A stretch of 23,764 nucleotides of DNA. Origin: a virus. Positions 7,737 to 14,960 of this stretch are shown here, one piece after another. Numbering within the stretch: position 1 is the first letter of the stretch; each line of letters begins with the position of its first letter. The stretch spans positions 1 through 23,764 of the IMG/VR virus record IMGVR_UViG_3300032223_001267; one strand, written 5' to 3'. The notes under the pieces are model-generated. The model was given only the letters and a program-made list of their open reading frames with translations. It made no database searches and was not told the origin of the DNA. The translations under genes and the position numbers were made by a program.

Positions 7737-10083
7737 CCCCGCAGACTGCCGGATCACGCTGGACGACGGGCGACCGCCGACGATCCATTGTTTTCACGAT
7801 TCTTGCAAATCCGAGATTGCAAGCGCGAATAAGGCGCTTCGATCCGCAATCGGCAAGGCGCAGAAGGCCGCCGCTCCCATCCGCCATTCGGTTGTGATGA
7901 AGCCGACGGTGGCAAAGAAGCCGCTGCAATCTCAAGATGTTCCACCACCCATTAACGGCGGAATGGAAAGGCACCTTGCAGCCTGTTTTGCGCCTGATGA
8001 GCATGTCGGCCTAGTCGGGGCGGATTTGGATGGAGGAATCAAGAGCGCGGGCAAAACCGTGTTGCCTGCTCAAGTTGCTGAGCAAAATGAACGCGGGACG
8101 TTCATCCGGGTCAACCCGATGGTTCCGAATGGCGCAGGGAATAGTGATGTCGCAGCATACAGACACGTGCTGATCGAATCCGACGAAACCTCGAAGCCGC
8201 TGCAATGGGCGGCGATAAACGCCAGCGGGCTTCCCGTGTCGGTTGTTATTGATTCCGGGGGGAAATCCCTGCACGCATGGGTACGAGTTGACGCGGAAAA
8301 CGAATCCGAATATCGGGCACGCGGAAAAAAAGCCGCTGACGCCATGGATGCTTTCGAGGGAGTCAAGGTAGACCGCTCTTGCCTTAACCCGGCACGATTG
8401 GCGCGGCTCGCCGGATGTCAGCGGGGAGCATCGCGACAGGAACTCATCTCGCTCGGAATTGGCGCAGCGTGCTGGGAGGAGTGGGAGAAACCCGAACCCG
8501 TCGCCGATCCGAAAGACGACAAGCCATTTCTGATCCTTGGAAATCTAAACCGCACGTATTATTACCTAAGCCGTCGCACGGCGTCTCTAGTGGCCCTTAC
8601 AAGCGCGCAGCATACGCGAAATGCGCTGCTTGAGCTGGCTCCGTTGTCGTGGTGGGAAATGGAGATGGATAAAAAGGGGGATGTTCTCATTCAAATCGCC
8701 GTCGACTGGCTCATTCAGACGGCGGGCGGAATGGAATTTAGCCCAGGACACATTCGCGGACGCGGCGCGTGGCTCGACGAGGGGCGCGTGGTGTTTCATG
8801 CGGGAAACGCGCTTTTTGTGGACGGCACGCCGGGGGATTTGCTGGCGGTGCGCTCAAAATACGTTTATGCGCGCGCTGAACGGCTTGGAGTGGCTCCCGC
8901 TGAACCGTTGTCGAACGCCGAAGCAAATAAGCTCAGGACGCTGATGGGCTGCTTTCAATTCGTAAACCCGCTCGACTCGCTCTTCATGGCGGGTTGGCTT
9001 GTTACGTCGGCAATCTGCGGCGCGCTAGACTGGCGTCCCCACGTCTGGCTGACTGGCGCGGCGGGATCGGGGAAAACTACGATTCTCACCGAGGTCGTGG
9101 AACCGCTCCTTAGTGACATCGCGTTGCATCTTCAGGGCAACACCACCGAGGCCGGCATCCGGCAGGCGCTCGGGTGCGACGCGCGGCCCGTGATATTTGA
9201 TGAAGCCGAGGGTGAAGGCGAAAGCGGGCAGAAACGGATGGCCGAAGTGATTGCCTTGGCTCGCGCGGCATCTCGGGAATCGGGGGCGGTGATGCTGAAG
9301 GGTGGCGCGACCGGGCAAGCGATGTCGTACAGGATCCGCTCGTCATTTCTTTTTGCTTCAATCGCCGTTTCACTGGACAAACGCGCCGACCAAGGCCGAA
9401 TTACGGTGCTGGAACTCATCCCCGAGCACCTCCGCACGGTCGACCATTTTTCAGAAGCGAAGAAATTGATGGCCGAAACCGTAGATCGCCCAGAGTGGTG
9501 TGAACAGTGGCGCGCTCGGTGCATCTCGCTTGCGGCGGTTGTCGCTGCGAACGCCATCACGTTCAAGCAAGCCGCGCGGCACAAGCTAGACGAGGCCCGC
9601 AACGCGGATCAGGTCGGGGCACTCTTAGCGGGTGCTTACGCGCTGACATCTACGGACCGAATCACGCCAGAGATAGCATCGTCATGGGTAGACGCGCAGG
9701 ATTGGACGTTCGCCAGCGCAGACCGAGGCGAAACGGATGAACGCTCGCTTTTAAACCGACTTCTTGAATCGTGGCTTCAGGTCGACACGCTCGACGGACC
9801 GGGGCGCGCTCGCATTACGGTTGCGGAGGCGATCCGACAGTCACTTTCAGAAAACGACAGCCGCGCACGGTGGGCAGAGGAGGCTCTGGCTCGAATTGGT
9901 GTCAAGGTACGCGACGAACATGTGGACATCGCCATCAGTGGCATCGAACTAAAGCAGCGGTTTGGCGTCACTCGGTGGGTGGATCAGCTAAAGCGATTCC
10001 CCGGCGCCCAGCGGATGGACTCTCAAGTTCAGATTGGTGCGATGCGGAAACGCACTGTCCGCTTGCCAATGTCGCTTTTCTAG
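7624..10083 (+). CDS. Primase-helicase (AEP-type primase plus SF3/AAA+-like ATPase)
   Basis: An 819-aa replication protein. The N-terminus has zinc-binding spacing (Cys27, His33, Cys42, Cys56, His58, Cys61), which requires the start at 7624 even though it overlaps VRR-NUC by 113 bases. The middle carries archaeo-eukaryotic-primase features: LIESDE (185-188), DSGGKSLHAWV (His217) and VDRSCLNPARLARL, so it should synthesise primers. The C-terminal half has Walker A TGAAGSGKT (477-485) and Walker B VIFDEAEG (Asp526, Glu527), followed by a sensor-like SSFLFASIAV. This joins primase and replicative helicase in one chain, as in plasmid and phage Prim-Pol proteins. A terminator follows about 60 bases after the stop. 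Confidence 0.8.
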   Translation: MNTSPQDIASSLYQIEWETPQLGWLDCPGMAAHTGRNNPADCRITLDDGRPPTIHCFHDSCKSEIASANKALRSAIGKAQKAAAPIRHSVVMKPTVAKKPLQSQDVPPPINGGMERHLAACFAPDEHVGLVGADLDGGIKSAGKTVLPAQVAEQNERGTFIRVNPMVPNGAGNSDVAAYRHVLIESDETSKPLQWAAINASGLPVSVVIDSGGKSLHAWVRVDAENESEYRARGKKAADAMDAFEGVKVDRSCLNPARLARLAGCQRGASRQELISLGIGAACWEEWEKPEPVADPKDDKPFLILGNLNRTYYYLSRRTASLVALTSAQHTRNALLELAPLSWWEMEMDKKGDVLIQIAVDWLIQTAGGMEFSPGHIRGRGAWLDEGRVVFHAGNALFVDGTPGDLLAVRSKYVYARAERLGVAPAEPLSNAEANKLRTLMGCFQFVNPLDSLFMAGWLVTSAICGALDWRPHVWLTGAAGSGKTTILTEVVEPLLSDIALHLQGNTTEAGIRQALGCDARPVIFDEAEGEGESGQKRMAEVIALARAASRESGAVMLKGGATGQAMSYRIRSSFLFASIAVSLDKRADQGRITVLELIPEHLRTVDHFSEAKKLMAETVDRPEWCEQWRARCISLAAVVAANAITFKQAARHKLDEARNADQVGALLAGAYALTSTDRITPEIASSWVDAQDWTFASADRGETDERSLLNRLLESWLQVDTLDGPGRARITVAEAIRQSLSENDSRARWAEEALARIGVKVRDEHVDIAISGIELKQRFGVTRWVDQLKRFPGAQRMDSQVQIGAMRKRTVRLPMSLF

Positions 10084-10228: not shown

Positions 10229-10267
<39 letters not shown>

Positions 10268-10293
10268 TATATATATTTATATGAGTATATGAG

Positions 10294-10351: not shown

Positions 10352-10585
10352 ATGAGTGAGCATTCTGAGTATCGGTTCCTTGTGGCTCCCGCGTGCGGGG
10401 GCTGGGTGGCGCTTCTCCACGCTGAATGCACAGAGGAAGCGGGGATTCTGAGCTGGCAACTGATGGCGAACTGCACCTGCGACCTGAAAAGCGCGCGCTA
10501 CGTGGGGAAGCATCGTCTGGCTGACTGTGATCTTTTGGGCTGGACATTTACCACGCGCGGGTGTCATTCAAAGAGCGATGGATGA
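10352..10585 (+). CDS. Hypothetical 77-aa Cys-rich protein
   Basis: The protein starts at MSEHSEYRFLVAPACGGW; the ATG lies within a TGAGTAT repeat region. Six Cys are present (residue 15, then ECTEE, ANCTCD, ADCDL, RGCHS), possibly metal-binding, but spacing fits no family I know. The stop overlaps the start of the HTH gene by 8 bases, which supports coding. No Shine-Dalgarno is visible. Moderate doubt remains. Confidence 0.45.
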   Translation: MSEHSEYRFLVAPACGGWVALLHAECTEEAGILSWQLMANCTCDLKSARYVGKHRLADCDLLGWTFTTRGCHSKSDG

Positions 10586-10943
10586 CGCAATCGACGAGTT
10601 GAGAGATTTAGGGCTCTCTGTGACAATGGCAGAAGACGTTCTCGAATGGCATGAAGAGCGCCTATTGGAGGAACGTGAAGCATTAGGAGGGCAGGTCGTG
10701 GTGAGGCTGATGGGATTCATTCTTGGCAAGCCGGGGTCGTCTCGCGTGCGGGACACGCGGCTTCGTGCGCTAGGGATAGCGTTTGCGGCTGGGCTTAATG
10801 AGATCGCAGGCTCTGGCTCGCTTACGCAGGCTGCCGAAAAAGAGGGGTGCAGCCCCAAGGCGCTGTCTTTAGTCTCGGCGGAGGCTGGAGAGGCTCTGGC
10901 GCTCCCGCTAGGCCCCAATAGACGCAGGGGAGGCCCCCGGTAA
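10578..10943 (+). CDS. HTH protein at the head of the late module
   Basis: This 121-aa protein starts at MDDAIDELRDLGL (10578). Frame upstream to 10527 overlaps the previous gene and is not needed. The N-terminal ~50 residues are acidic and helical (EDVLEWHEERLLEEREAL). Residues ~85-110 (LTQAAEKEGCSPKALSLVSAEAGEAL) fit a helix-turn-helix. Its place between control region and packaging genes suggests a late regulator or an additional packaging protein. No specific family is recognised. Confidence 0.55.
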   Translation: MDDAIDELRDLGLSVTMAEDVLEWHEERLLEEREALGGQVVVRLMGFILGKPGSSRVRDTRLRALGIAFAAGLNEIAGSGSLTQAAEKEGCSPKALSLVSAEAGEALALPLGPNRRRGGPR

Positions 10944-10999: not shown

Positions 11000-11809
11000 A
11001 TGAGTAAATCAAAAAACCACACTTACCAAATTGAACAGGTAGACATTCAGAAACTGATTCCCTACGCGAACAACGCAAAACTACATTCTGAAAAACAGGT
11101 TTCTCAAATCGCTTCATCTATCCGGGAGTTCGGCTTTAACAACCCGGTGCTGATTGATTCAGAAAATGGAATCATCGCCGGGCATGGCCGGGTTCTTGCA
11201 GCCCGGAAACTTGACCTCGAACAAGTGCCGTGCATTCGCCTTGTTCACTTAACTGACAATCAACGCAAGGCATACATCCTTGCAGACAACCGACTTGCGG
11301 AAACGGGCGGAGGCTGGGATGAGGAAATATTGAAACTTGAAATCAAGGCAATCGAGTGGTCTGATTTAGAGGAGATTGGCATTGATGATTTTGAATTTTC
11401 AGAAATAGAGTTTGGAGAATCCGAAGAGAGTTCAGAAAAAACAAACAACCCTTATACAGCAAAAATTGAAACCCCGGTTTATCAAGTCACAGGAGAAACC
11501 CCGGACGTTTCGGATTTGATGAATCTCGAAAAATACAATGTTTTGCTTCAAGCGATTAGCAAATCTGCTGTTAGTAGCCAGCAAAAAGAATTTTTGAAAT
11601 TTGCTGCTGCTAGGCATATTGTTTTCAATTATCAACAGATTGCCGAATTTTACGCACACGCTGACAAAGAGCTTCAGCAACTGATGGAGGACTCAGCTCT
11701 TGTTATTGTGGATTTTAACAAGGCTATTGAAAAAGGCTTCGTGAAACTGACAGACTCAATCGCAGAGCAGTTTGGCGTTGATTTCCCAACGGAAGAAGAT
11801 GATGAATAA
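11000..11809 (+). CDS. ParB-like protein with a separate C-terminal phage domain
   Basis: The 269-aa protein has an N-terminal ParB/sulfiredoxin-type domain (about 10-125): IQKLIPYANNAKLHSEKQV, then IIAGHGRVLAARKL with the GHGR motif at 61-64, and LTDNQRKAYILADNRLAE. After an acidic linker (140-165) a second domain begins near 175; its RHIVFNYQQIAEFYAHADKE and SALVIVDFNKAIEKGFVKL are, as I recall, a conserved phage region. ParB-like domains bind DNA and hydrolyse CTP, or act as nucleases; phage relatives are linked to DNA modification and packaging regions. The gene is AT-rich and overlaps the glycosyltransferase gene by 8 bases. Confidence 0.75.
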   Translation: MSKSKNHTYQIEQVDIQKLIPYANNAKLHSEKQVSQIASSIREFGFNNPVLIDSENGIIAGHGRVLAARKLDLEQVPCIRLVHLTDNQRKAYILADNRLAETGGGWDEEILKLEIKAIEWSDLEEIGIDDFEFSEIEFGESEESSEKTNNPYTAKIETPVYQVTGETPDVSDLMNLEKYNVLLQAISKSAVSSQQKEFLKFAAARHIVFNYQQIAEFYAHADKELQQLMEDSALVIVDFNKAIEKGFVKLTDSIAEQFGVDFPTEEDDE

Positions 11810-12656
11810 TTTTTGCGTATTCATTTTGTCTCACGGCCGAGCAGACAATGTAGTCACATATCAAACATTGCGAAACCGAGGTTATACGGGACGCATTGTT
11901 GTGATTATTGACAATGAAGACAAACAGGCAGCGAAATACAAAAACAAATACGGAGACGAAGTTTATGTTTTTGATAAAGCTGCAATTGCAAAAACAGTAG
12001 ATAACGGCGACAATTTCAATAATTTGCGAACAACCACTCATGTTCGTAATGCAATTTTTGAAACTGCAAAACAAATGGGGATAGAATCCTTTGTGATGCT
12101 GGATGACGACTATGTGGATTTTCGATACAAATTTTCAAGCGACCACAAATACGGGGATTTTTTGGTCAAAAAAAATCTCGACCGCATTTTTCAGTTTACT
12201 GTCAATTATTTGAAATCATGTGAAAAATTGAGTTGTATAGCATATTCGCAAGGAGGTGATTTTATGGGTGGCGCAAATGGAATTTATGCAAAAAAAATTC
12301 GCACAAAGAGAAAAATCATGAACAGTTTTTTCTGTCTGACTGACAGGCCGTTCAAATTCATTTCGAGACTAAACGAAGACGTCAATACGTATCTTTCCTT
12401 AGGAGCACGTGGTGTGTTGTTTTTGACAATCAATCAGTTTGCTTTGAATCAAAAACAAACCCAAACAAATAAAGGTGGAATGTCGGACGCATACCTTGAA
12501 GGAGGCACTTATATGAAATCATTTTACTCTGTGATGTATGCACCAAGCTGTACACGAGTTATGACAATTGGTGCCGTGCATCCTCGATTGCATCACAAAA
12601 TCAATTGGAAATACGCAGCACCTTATGTGGTGTCTGAAAATGTGAAAAAGAAATGA
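11802..12656 (+). CDS. Predicted TET-associated-type (DNA) glycosyltransferase
   Basis: The 284-aa protein has the signature of a GT-A-fold glycosyltransferase: VFILSHGRADN (SHGR 10-13), RIVVIIDNEDKQAAKY near 31, TTHVRNAIFETAKQMG near 78 and FVMLDDDYVDF with Asp101-103 as metal-binding DxD. This pattern matches TAGT proteins, found in phages beside TET/JBP dioxygenases and thought to glycosylate hydroxylated bases. ATGs at 11799 and 11802 are adjacent; I use the second, 8 bases after GGA. The gene is AT-rich (19 G/C of 60 in 11941-12000). No base hydroxylase is in this window. An alternative substrate, such as a protein or surface glycan, is possible. Confidence 0.65.
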   Translation: MNNFCVFILSHGRADNVVTYQTLRNRGYTGRIVVIIDNEDKQAAKYKNKYGDEVYVFDKAAIAKTVDNGDNFNNLRTTTHVRNAIFETAKQMGIESFVMLDDDYVDFRYKFSSDHKYGDFLVKKNLDRIFQFTVNYLKSCEKLSCIAYSQGGDFMGGANGIYAKKIRTKRKIMNSFFCLTDRPFKFISRLNEDVNTYLSLGARGVLFLTINQFALNQKQTQTNKGGMSDAYLEGGTYMKSFYSVMYAPSCTRVMTIGAVHPRLHHKINWKYAAPYVVSENVKKK

Positions 12657-13219
12657 GTCTTGTCGATAAAGCGACCAAGAAACAGGTCAAAAACATTCTC
12701 GCAAAGCTCAACGCTGGAAAGACAATCACGCGCCGGGAGCAGGCGCAGATTGAAGCCTACGAGCGCGGGCAGGCTGTGCCAAAAACGACTAGGGAATGGG
12801 CGGCGCATTACAAGGTGTCTCACGTCACAATCATCAACTGGGGGAAGGCAGACGCGCCACTGAATGGAACTGTCGAGGAAATGGACACATGGAGAGCGTC
12901 GAAAGAGAAACAGGAGCCAACAAAATATTCGGATGCGAAACTTCAGAAAACGCTCCTCGAATGTAAGAAAATCGGGCTGGTGGTTGCCCAGCTTGAGGGA
13001 GAACTGATTTCGCGGGCGGCAGTGCGCGAAGCGTGCACAACAATTTCGGCAACACTGGCGGCAGAATTTCAAAACCTTGTTAGTGATTGCGTTTCGATTC
13101 TGGATGGGCTGCAAGGCGCGCAGATTCGGGAGAAGCTGGAACCCCGCGTGAACCTACTAATTGAAAGGACCAATGAACGACTCGCCAACATTAAATCCGG
13201 CATTCGAGGGATGGATTGA
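12653..13219 (+). CDS. Small terminase subunit (Nu1-like)
   Basis: The 188-aa protein starts in an ATGA overlap with the glycosyltransferase. N-terminal residues ~45-70 (TTREWAAHYKVSHVTIINWGK) are an HTH typical of small terminases. The middle is charged, and the C-terminal half (ISRAAVREACTTISATLAAEF, then long helices to the end) resembles Nu1-type phage proteins. It should bind the packaging site and recruit the large terminase, which overlaps it by 47 bases. Confidence 0.75.
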   Translation: MSLVDKATKKQVKNILAKLNAGKTITRREQAQIEAYERGQAVPKTTREWAAHYKVSHVTIINWGKADAPLNGTVEEMDTWRASKEKQEPTKYSDAKLQKTLLECKKIGLVVAQLEGELISRAAVREACTTISATLAAEFQNLVSDCVSILDGLQGAQIREKLEPRVNLLIERTNERLANIKSGIRGMD

Positions 13220-14960
13220 GGGGTTTAAAGGAACCTTCAGTGGCGACCCGCTCGACTGGATGGCGGCGAATGTTCGGCTGCCTCATTCGGCGCGCAGTTC
13301 GGAATTTGACCCCGGCATGGCGCCGTGGTTGAACGACATCATCCGGGCGGTGACAAACGACAGGATCCGGCAAATCATCGTGCGGATGCCCACAGGCGCC
13401 GGAAAGACAACGTTTCTGGAACTCATCTGCCCATACATCGTCGCGAATCAGCCTGGGCCGATGCTTTTGGTGGAGCAAACTGATGACACCAGCAAAGATT
13501 GGGCAGAGTCTCGACTCATGCCAGTATTTGAAGCGTGCGAACCTGTGGCGCGCCTATTCCCCGAGGACCGGCACCAGAAACGCAAGAGCGCTATTCTTTT
13601 TCCACACATGGCACTCTTCATGTCCGGTGCCAATATGAGCGGGGCTCAAGGCAAGTCGATGCGGTATGTTTACTGCGATGAAGCTTGGCAATTCAAGGCG
13701 GGTATCTTGGGTGAGCTGCAAAAGCGGCTTCACGACCGGGTGAACCGGAAGTTTATTGTGTGCTCGCAGGGCTGGGATAGCTCACATGATACCGAGGAGC
13801 TCTGGCGAATGGGGACAACGCATGAGTGGGGTCATGAATGCATCGCGTGCGGCGCCTGGGGGAAATGGTCCTGGCTCAATGTCAAATACGCCGAACCAGA
13901 GGAAGGCAAGGAATGGAACTGGCAGGAACTCCGCGACTCTGTCCGGCATGAATGCGAATGTGGACACGTCACGCCGAACACAACCGCAGGCCGTCGGGCG
14001 ATGGCGGCGCGCTCTAGCTATCGGGCGGAGGTTGGCGAGAACGCAGTTGAGGGCAACGTGAATTTCACCCTTCCAGCGTGGGCAGTCTGGTGGATTGATT
14101 GGGCAGACTTAGCCGTTGAGTGGGTGAAAGCAAATGAGGCGAAGCGGAAAGGGAACATTGAACCGCTGAAGCAATTTAAACAGAAACGCGGGGCGCAGGT
14201 CTGGACGCTCGAAGAAGACCGCCCCGTGGTGAACCTACTCGCGGCGGATTACTCGCGCGCGGATTACGCCGACGGGCAGAAGATCGATGGGGAAGTGATT
14301 CGGTTTCTTACGGTGGACGTGCAGCAGGATCATTATTGGGCGTGCGTCCGAGCATGGCGAGCGGATGGGACGTCGATGCTCGTCTGGTATGGGAAGATTC
14401 TGACCAAGGACGGCATTGTGGATTTGCAAAAGCGGATGGGTGTCAGAGAAAACATGGTTTTTGTCGACTCCGGTTACGAAACCCCGGCAGTTTACGAAAT
14501 GTGTGCAGTGGGGGCAAAGTACAACGAGCAGGGCTGGCTCTGGAACTCGGGGTGGACGGCGCTGAAGGGCGCGAAGCAGGAACGGTTTTCCCACATCCCG
14601 CCGAATGGAAAGAAAGTGGAAAAGTTCTTCAGCCCCCCGGTAAAGGTGCTCGCGGGATCCGGCAAGCATTGTCGACTGATTCATTGGAGCAATTTGATCG
14701 CAAAAGATAAACTCTCGCACCTGCGCGCGGCGGGTCCGGATGTCTGGGCGTTTCCCTCGGATGTCGGAGAGCAGTACATGGCGCAGATCGTCAGCGAAGT
14801 GAAGCGCGACGTGATTGATCCGCAGACTAAAGCGATCACGCAACGGTACGTCGCCATAAACCGAAACAACCACGCATGGGATTGTGAGTGTATGCAAATT
14901 GTCGCAGCGGCCATCACGCACATCTTGAAAGGTGTTGCCAACGATGAATCGCCTGTGTAG
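13173..14960 (+). CDS. terL: Large terminase subunit (GpA family)
   Basis: The 595-aa packaging motor has Walker A MPTGAGKT (72-79) and Walker B RYVYCDEA (163-171) in the ATPase. A four-Cys zinc site (Cys223, 226, 261, 263) lies between the domains. The nuclease domain has LTVDVQQDH (Asp382), FVDSGYE (Asp432) and NNHAWDCE near 575. The order and the SGAQGKSMRYVYCDEA region place it in the lambda GpA family rather than Terminase_1/3/6. The start at 13173 follows AAAGGA; the four residues upstream are not needed. GpA enzymes pump DNA into the procapsid and cut concatemers, usually at cos sites. Confidence 0.93.
   Translation: MNDSPTLNPAFEGWIEGFKGTFSGDPLDWMAANVRLPHSARSSEFDPGMAPWLNDIIRAVTNDRIRQIIVRMPTGAGKTTFLELICPYIVANQPGPMLLVEQTDDTSKDWAESRLMPVFEACEPVARLFPEDRHQKRKSAILFPHMALFMSGANMSGAQGKSMRYVYCDEAWQFKAGILGELQKRLHDRVNRKFIVCSQGWDSSHDTEELWRMGTTHEWGHECIACGAWGKWSWLNVKYAEPEEGKEWNWQELRDSVRHECECGHVTPNTTAGRRAMAARSSYRAEVGENAVEGNVNFTLPAWAVWWIDWADLAVEWVKANEAKRKGNIEPLKQFKQKRGAQVWTLEEDRPVVNLLAADYSRADYADGQKIDGEVIRFLTVDVQQDHYWACVRAWRADGTSMLVWYGKILTKDGIVDLQKRMGVRENMVFVDSGYETPAVYEMCAVGAKYNEQGWLWNSGWTALKGAKQERFSHIPPNGKKVEKFFSPPVKVLAGSGKHCRLIHWSNLIAKDKLSHLRAAGPDVWAFPSDVGEQYMAQIVSEVKRDVIDPQTKAITQRYVAINRNNHAWDCECMQIVAAAITHILKGVANDESPV

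Follow-up and report, generated by a model that had tools for sequence, protein, structure and literature searches.

Gene content of the locus

The window analysed here, meaning the whole stretch of DNA, comprised an entire virus record of 23,764 bases, which may itself be a fragment. Directly before the terminase genes it encoded a pair of overlapping genes (Table 1). The first gene encodes a protein with a ParB/sulfiredoxin-like domain followed by a helical C-terminal domain (CTD), and the second encodes a glycosyltransferase of the TAGT type, a family named for its link with TET/JBP. Both open reading frames had been proposed in an initial annotation made from the sequence alone. They were confirmed with an overlap of 11 bases, and the GHGR, SHGR, RN and DDD motifs were all present in the proteins to which they had been assigned. 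For the TAGT reading frame there is also an alternative TTG start at position 11772. Regarding the flanking genes, the annotation held on the terminase side, where profile matches were found, while its label of an HTH gene for the upstream neighbour was weak. About twelve TAG triplets in a row (10231-10268) were observed in an AT-rich stretch between the primase gene and this upstream neighbour.

Table 1. Coordinates of the gene pair, its domains and motifs, and the neighbouring genes in the window.
Feature	Position (bases)	Strand	Size or residues	Remarks
Gene without assigned function upstream of the pair	10527-10943			HTH match at chance level only (E 0.027, below cut-off)
ParB/sulfiredoxin-like + CTD protein gene	11000-11809	+	269 aa
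ParB/sulfiredoxin-like N-terminal domain	11000-11434	+	aa 1-145	Profile and structure matches
GHGR motif of first protein	11180-11191	+	aa 61-64
CTD, helical	11447-11809	+	aa 150-269	Partner of TAGT
Overlap of ParB-CTD gene and TAGT gene	11799-11809	+	11 bases
TAGT glycosyltransferase gene	11799-12656	+	285 aa	Counted from ATG
SHGR motif of TAGT protein	11829-11840	+	aa 11-14
RN motif of TAGT protein			aa 83-84
DDD motif of TAGT protein	12102-12110	+	aa 102-104
HH, C-terminal, of TAGT protein			aa 265-266
Terminase small subunit	12653-13219	+		Marks slot; phrog_57 3e-6, weak
Terminase large subunit, GpA-type	13161-14960	+		Marks slot; PF05876 1.1e-25, PF20454 8.8e-23

The pair differed strongly in base composition from the rest of the record, with a GC content of 42% in the ParB-CTD gene and 37% in the TAGT gene versus 54% elsewhere. 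The pair as a whole had 39.8% GC, about 15 points under its flanks, and stretches of equal length (1,657 bases) outside the pair never fell below 47.8% anywhere in the record. Third-position GC dropped from about 0.6 elsewhere to 0.36-0.45 in the pair. The G/C counts given in the initial annotation were exact (19 in 11941-12000 and 38 in 13261-13320). We also checked whether AT-richness is a general trend of such cassettes and rejected this, as the mean deficit versus flanks among 142 cassette loci was only -3.6 points. With -15.5 points the pair of this record showed the second largest deficit of all 142, and it was therefore likely acquired recently by this virus lineage, in support of the AT-rich, transferred pair that had been suggested before.

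The ParB-like domain and the glycosyltransferase

The assignment of the first protein to a ParB-type family was supported by matches of its N-terminal domain to PHROG 620 (2.9e-60), to Spo0J/Noc/ParB in profile searches of the PDB (6e-11) and to Noc/ParB in Foldseek (7e-6). With a ParB_N fold and a GxxR nucleotide motif the protein belongs to the ParB/sulfiredoxin superfamily, with a Pfam ParB_N score of 22.9 bits that lies under the curated cut-off of 26.3. G61 was invariant among about 60-70 homologues. The closest family after its own PHROG was the ParB part of phage ParB-DNA methyltransferases (phrog_498, whose N-terminal part matched at 9e-46), and the N-terminal part of the PADLOC model MTase_II matched as well (2e-31). 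ParB matches covered the N-terminal part of the protein only and the HTH and dimerisation domains of ParB partition proteins were not found there; the remainder of the protein is the CTD.

The second protein reached 124.9 bits against PF20691 (curated cut-off 27.5), which places it within this family, and matched phrog_842 at 6.7e-67. Its AF2 model (pLDDT 93, pTM 0.90) falls inside the GT-A fold, since the PDB matches listed by Foldseek were GT-A enzymes, and the nearest solved folds include collagen and mucin-type protein glycosyltransferases. R14, R83, D103 and D104 were invariant among about 60-70 homologues, the two aspartates representing the acidic DxD-type metal site of such enzymes. 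The initial call of a TAGT protein with a GT-A fold was thus borne out, and the protein is probably a nucleotide-sugar-dependent transferase that acts together with the CTD. Among PADLOC models none matched the TAGT protein or the CTD. Tandem TAGT duplicates were seen in loci L032 (7015-9525), L019, L114, L115, L185 and L198, with a repeated CTD-TAGT pair in L032 and the order TAGT-CTD-TAGT in L198.

The C-terminal domain is the constant partner of TAGT

A search with the TAGT protein yielded 134 loci from viral contigs, bacterial genomes and named phages, this record included, and in 130 of them the upstream DNA was readable. A homologue of the first gene was located upstream in all 130 readable loci. 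The CTD was encoded in 129 of these, the exception being one locus (L108) with the ParB part only. When the CTD alone was used as bait, TAGT was encoded in all 72 newly found loci, and among 50,697 phage records the CTD was present in 28, all of which were within the 34 records with TAGT. The first gene and the TAGT gene were at most 60 bases apart in 114/130 loci, and an overlap of exactly 11 bases was the commonest spacing (26/130), which makes translational coupling of the two genes possible.

In 22 loci the CTD was found without ParB, as a gene of 131-153 aa. In each of them an in-frame stop lay ahead of the gene, 600 bases or more of upstream DNA were available and the preceding 4 kb contained no ParB domain. 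The tree called for 10 or more switches between a fused and a solo CTD. It is thus the CTD, and not the ParB domain, that is the constant partner of TAGT, and since 22 loci carry the solo form ParB is dispensable. The second C-terminal domain that had been noticed in the first protein was hence confirmed and proved to be the constant element of the cassette.

Conservation of the CTD was assessed for 76 representatives with less than 65% identity. Y161, R205, A215, Y218, E230, D238 and also P159 were present wherever the alignment column was filled, and H206 and H220 were found in 93% and 79%, respectively. The AF2 model predicted helices at residues 177-188, 193-206, 211-220, 223-231 and 242-261, with high confidence to about residue 230 and moderate confidence beyond. 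Profile comparison found no confident relative of the CTD in Pfam, NCBIfam or PDB, and Foldseek with the whole first protein gave essentially ParB/sulfiredoxin-type structures among the matches listed. Weak matches to PF23887 (mycobacteriophage L5 gene 47-like) were obtained for 11 of 15 members of the CTD family, with a best value of 0.0018. A match over 27 aa to T4 RNA ligase 2 in the PDB (E about 0.6-0.8) was judged to be due to chance.

Distribution of the cassette

The cassette occurred in viruses infecting Gram-negative or Gram-positive bacteria and in one haloarchaeal virus, as well as in bacterial genomes from several phyla; on the plasmids searched no TAGT of this clade was found. A terminase was encoded at positions +1 to +4 downstream in at least 79 of the 119 TAGT loci having three or more downstream genes, a count that is a lower bound because only eight gene clusters were counted. 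In E. coli the pair sits in Rac-type prophages, an intact example being L025 (19217-20933), and some part of it was detected in 1,572 of 5,426 complete genomes, with at least 80% of the pair in 885 (~16%). In the Rac prophage of K-12 MG1655 (L219, 3878-4481) only ynaK is left, an 87-aa remnant of the ParB part; the TAGT gene is gone and ydaY follows directly.

Donor-type genes within the cassette

Several cassettes encoded for a cytidylyltransferase (PF01467), for which the nearest match was glycerol-3-phosphate cytidylyltransferase (TIGR01518, 1.6e-14, under the cut-off of this model). Three arrangements were seen. In L020 and relatives the cytidylyltransferase is fused to a His-phosphatase, and the gene for this fusion lies between CTD and TAGT with overlapping ends; in L049 (10861-11274), L061, L063, L146, L168 and L187 it stands alone directly 3' of TAGT; and in L140 it stands alone between CTD and TAGT. 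In another cassette (L188) the genes between CTD and TAGT included one with a CofD domain and one for an NTP_transf_3 protein. On a fast and therefore approximate tree the nucleotidyltransferase trait required about 6 parsimony changes. This repeated entry of nucleotidyltransferase genes into the cassette marks a nucleotide-sugar pathway, and we regard it as strong circumstantial evidence that the cassette carries out a nucleotide-sugar-dependent decoration. The captured donor genes further suggest that the attached group varies among lineages, for example with a CDP-glycerol-like donor. The cassette of this record contained no nucleotidyltransferase gene and would draw its donor from the host.

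A class I methyltransferase-like gene was located between CTD and TAGT in L045, L046 and L065, and in L182 such a gene was recognised by sequence likeness only, with no Pfam hit. In one further locus (L054) a stand-alone CTD and TAGT were immediately preceded by an FkbM-family methyltransferase gene (8970-9608). A single open reading frame in L163 (5569-7251) spanning ParB-CTD and phosphatase-cytidylyltransferase was not counted as a fusion; it lacks the RHG motif of the phosphatase in its relatives and is therefore probably a frameshift.

Search for acceptor-making enzymes

The initial annotation had placed the source of the sugar acceptor in a TET, hydroxymethylase or thymidylate-synthase-like enzyme encoded outside the window or in an unrecognised gene. 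For the former we screened 37 records of relatives, including complete genomes, among them ones of 32-65 kb, from phages of Escherichia, Lactobacillus, Haloarcula, Nocardia and Vibrio, as well as several fragments. Neither Tet_JBP nor a C5-methyltransferase was found in any of the 37. A thymidylate synthase (dCMP hydroxymethylase family) was present in one, a 191 kb Vibrio jumbo phage, and a distant 2OG oxygenase in another single contig. All radical SAM matches in these records were below cut-off, and N6/N4 methyltransferases were not consistently present. As a positive control, the same Tet search detected the TET of mycobacteriophage Nigel. This record, itself possibly a fragment, likewise contained no Tet_JBP and no thymidylate synthase. 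These results do not support the proposed source, and the missing recognised hydroxylase appears to be the rule among relatives of the cassette; because the 37 records include several fragments, the finding describes a trend and does not prove the point for every genome.

Comparison with known systems

According to the TAGT passages of PMC13216743 and PMC13390438, the TAGT of phage T6 adds a second glucose to glucosylated hmC in DNA. This beta-glucosyl-HMC-alpha-glucosyltransferase of T2/T6 (Ggt) shares PF20691, PHROG 842 and the GT-A fold with the TAGT described here, with a PF20691 score for T6 Ggt of 35.8 bits versus 124.9. The gene ggt adjoins that of the dCMP hydroxymethylase gp42 and no ParB or CTD gene was annotated in the T6 stretch examined, whereas cassettes of the present clade encode for CTD or ParB-CTD and for no hydroxymethylase. 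Profile comparison of the cassette clade with the T6 TAGT alone gave no match, and the substrate of this distant enzyme is therefore not transferable to the clade. In T6 (MH550421; L208, 6138-6980) the ggt frame has an in-frame TAG at codon 10, at the SHGR-type motif, and the annotated start lies 3' of this TAG.

With no alpha-GT or beta-GT, the TAGT of this record fits the class of solitary TAGTs as outlined in the corresponding passages of PMC13216743, which report such enzymes in 288 of 753 phage genomes. This class is thus already known. These passages mention neither a partner domain on which TAGT depends, nor a fusion to ParB, nor the insertion of donor genes, and in the literature examined we found neither the obligate CTD nor the embedded donor genes described; the CTD itself may have been described earlier.

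In other phages similar ParB domains accompany DNA-modifying enzymes. Fusions of ParB and DNA adenine methyltransferase (PHROG 498; pOW20-A) share the ParB subfamily and likewise the slot before the terminase, the pOW20-A fusion being encoded immediately 5' of the terminase genes. There the ParB domain and its methyltransferase effector form one polypeptide, in contrast to the separate TAGT with CTD found here. In Nigel a related ParB-like gene (gp1) overlaps the TET oxygenase gene (gp2), with one gene between TET and terminase. In that phage the effector is the oxygenase, gp1 is without a CTD and no match to PF20691 was found.

Possible function

The pair very probably transfers a sugar, and DNA is its most likely recipient. 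We lean, with modest confidence, towards reading it as a DNA-directed, CTD-dependent phage glycosylation cassette. TAGT would act as a metal-dependent GT-A transferase, with a nucleotide-activated sugar or polyol as donor that the host pool would normally supply, and would be active only with its cognate helical CTD. Both would probably form a complex, in matched amounts due to coupled translation, which the ParB-type domain, fused to the CTD here and in most relatives, would bring to DNA. We infer that the cassette marks phage DNA, and the phage's own DNA would be the likeliest acceptor, marked before packaging and possibly thereby evading host nucleases as a means of counter-defence. DNA appears to be the likeliest target because other phages encode this ParB domain, likewise before the terminase, as a fusion to DNA methyltransferases, and because in Nigel the gene for a related domain overlaps that of TET. 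No known kind of TET or hydroxymethylase would make the acceptor; the cassette would use an ordinary base, or the CTD would help to prepare the site. Several points count against this reading: an acceptor-making enzyme was not found in the relatives searched, the ParB domain, on which the case for DNA mainly rests, is lacking in 22 loci, and the T6 TAGT is distant. To our knowledge every characterised phage DNA glycosyltransferase requires a hydroxylated base, and we are not aware of chemical data on any protein of this TAGT clade. If DNA is the target, a DNA mark of uncharacterised chemistry would be spread among a haloarchaeal virus and phages whose hosts belong to several bacterial phyla. 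Either the rule that sugar addition depends on a hydroxyl already present on the base would then not hold, or a new domain that makes the acceptor would come to light. Both the obligate CTD and the captured donor genes offer direct ways of probing what solitary TAGTs do, a question left open in the 2026 paper PMC13216743.

It is conceivable, though less likely than not, that DNA is glycosylated with no separate hydroxylase: TAGT and its obligate CTD might attach the sugar or polyol to an ordinary base directly, or base activation might fall to the CTD as a new kind of enzyme. We consider it unlikely that the CTD by itself prepares the base for TAGT by hydroxylation or another activating step. 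Its near-strict presence with TAGT and its enzyme-like conservation (R205, Y218, E230 and D238 in 76/76, in addition to H206) would agree with such a role, but the CTD is a helical domain of 120 aa, showed no confident likeness to known enzymes in the profile and structure searches described above, and has no obvious metal triad since its histidines, H220 in particular, are not invariant. It is very unlikely that TAGT follows the classical scheme and decorates a 5-hydroxymethyl-pyrimidine made elsewhere in phage or host. The origin of the TAGT name and the hydroxymethylase gene next to the T6 TAGT favour this scheme; the screen of the 37 relatives and of this record, with its positive Nigel control, argues against it.

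The cassette could also glycosylate a protein, such as ParB-CTD itself, the terminase or a host factor, with the CTD as acceptor or adaptor. This would suit the absence of hydroxylated-base enzymes in the relatives, the invariant tyrosines Y161 and Y218 of the CTD, the overlap of both genes and the likeness to collagen and mucin-type protein glycosyltransferases, and GREB1, a eukaryotic protein in which a TAGT domain is said to occur, reportedly glycosylates a protein. We nevertheless regard a protein target as rather unlikely, since the ParB domain also occurs in DNA methyltransferases encoded at this position before the terminase and is related to the ParB-like protein whose gene adjoins that of the TET oxygenase in Nigel. 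That the T6 TAGT acts on DNA, as stated in the passages cited above, also speaks against it. Finally, the pair might be a neutral passenger, the decayed leftover of a broken modification system, as its AT-rich and recently transferred state and the ynaK fragment of K-12 would allow. This is extremely unlikely, as both reading frames are intact in this record, the catalytic residues are kept over about 70 homologues and roughly a sixth of the complete E. coli genomes retain most of the pair.
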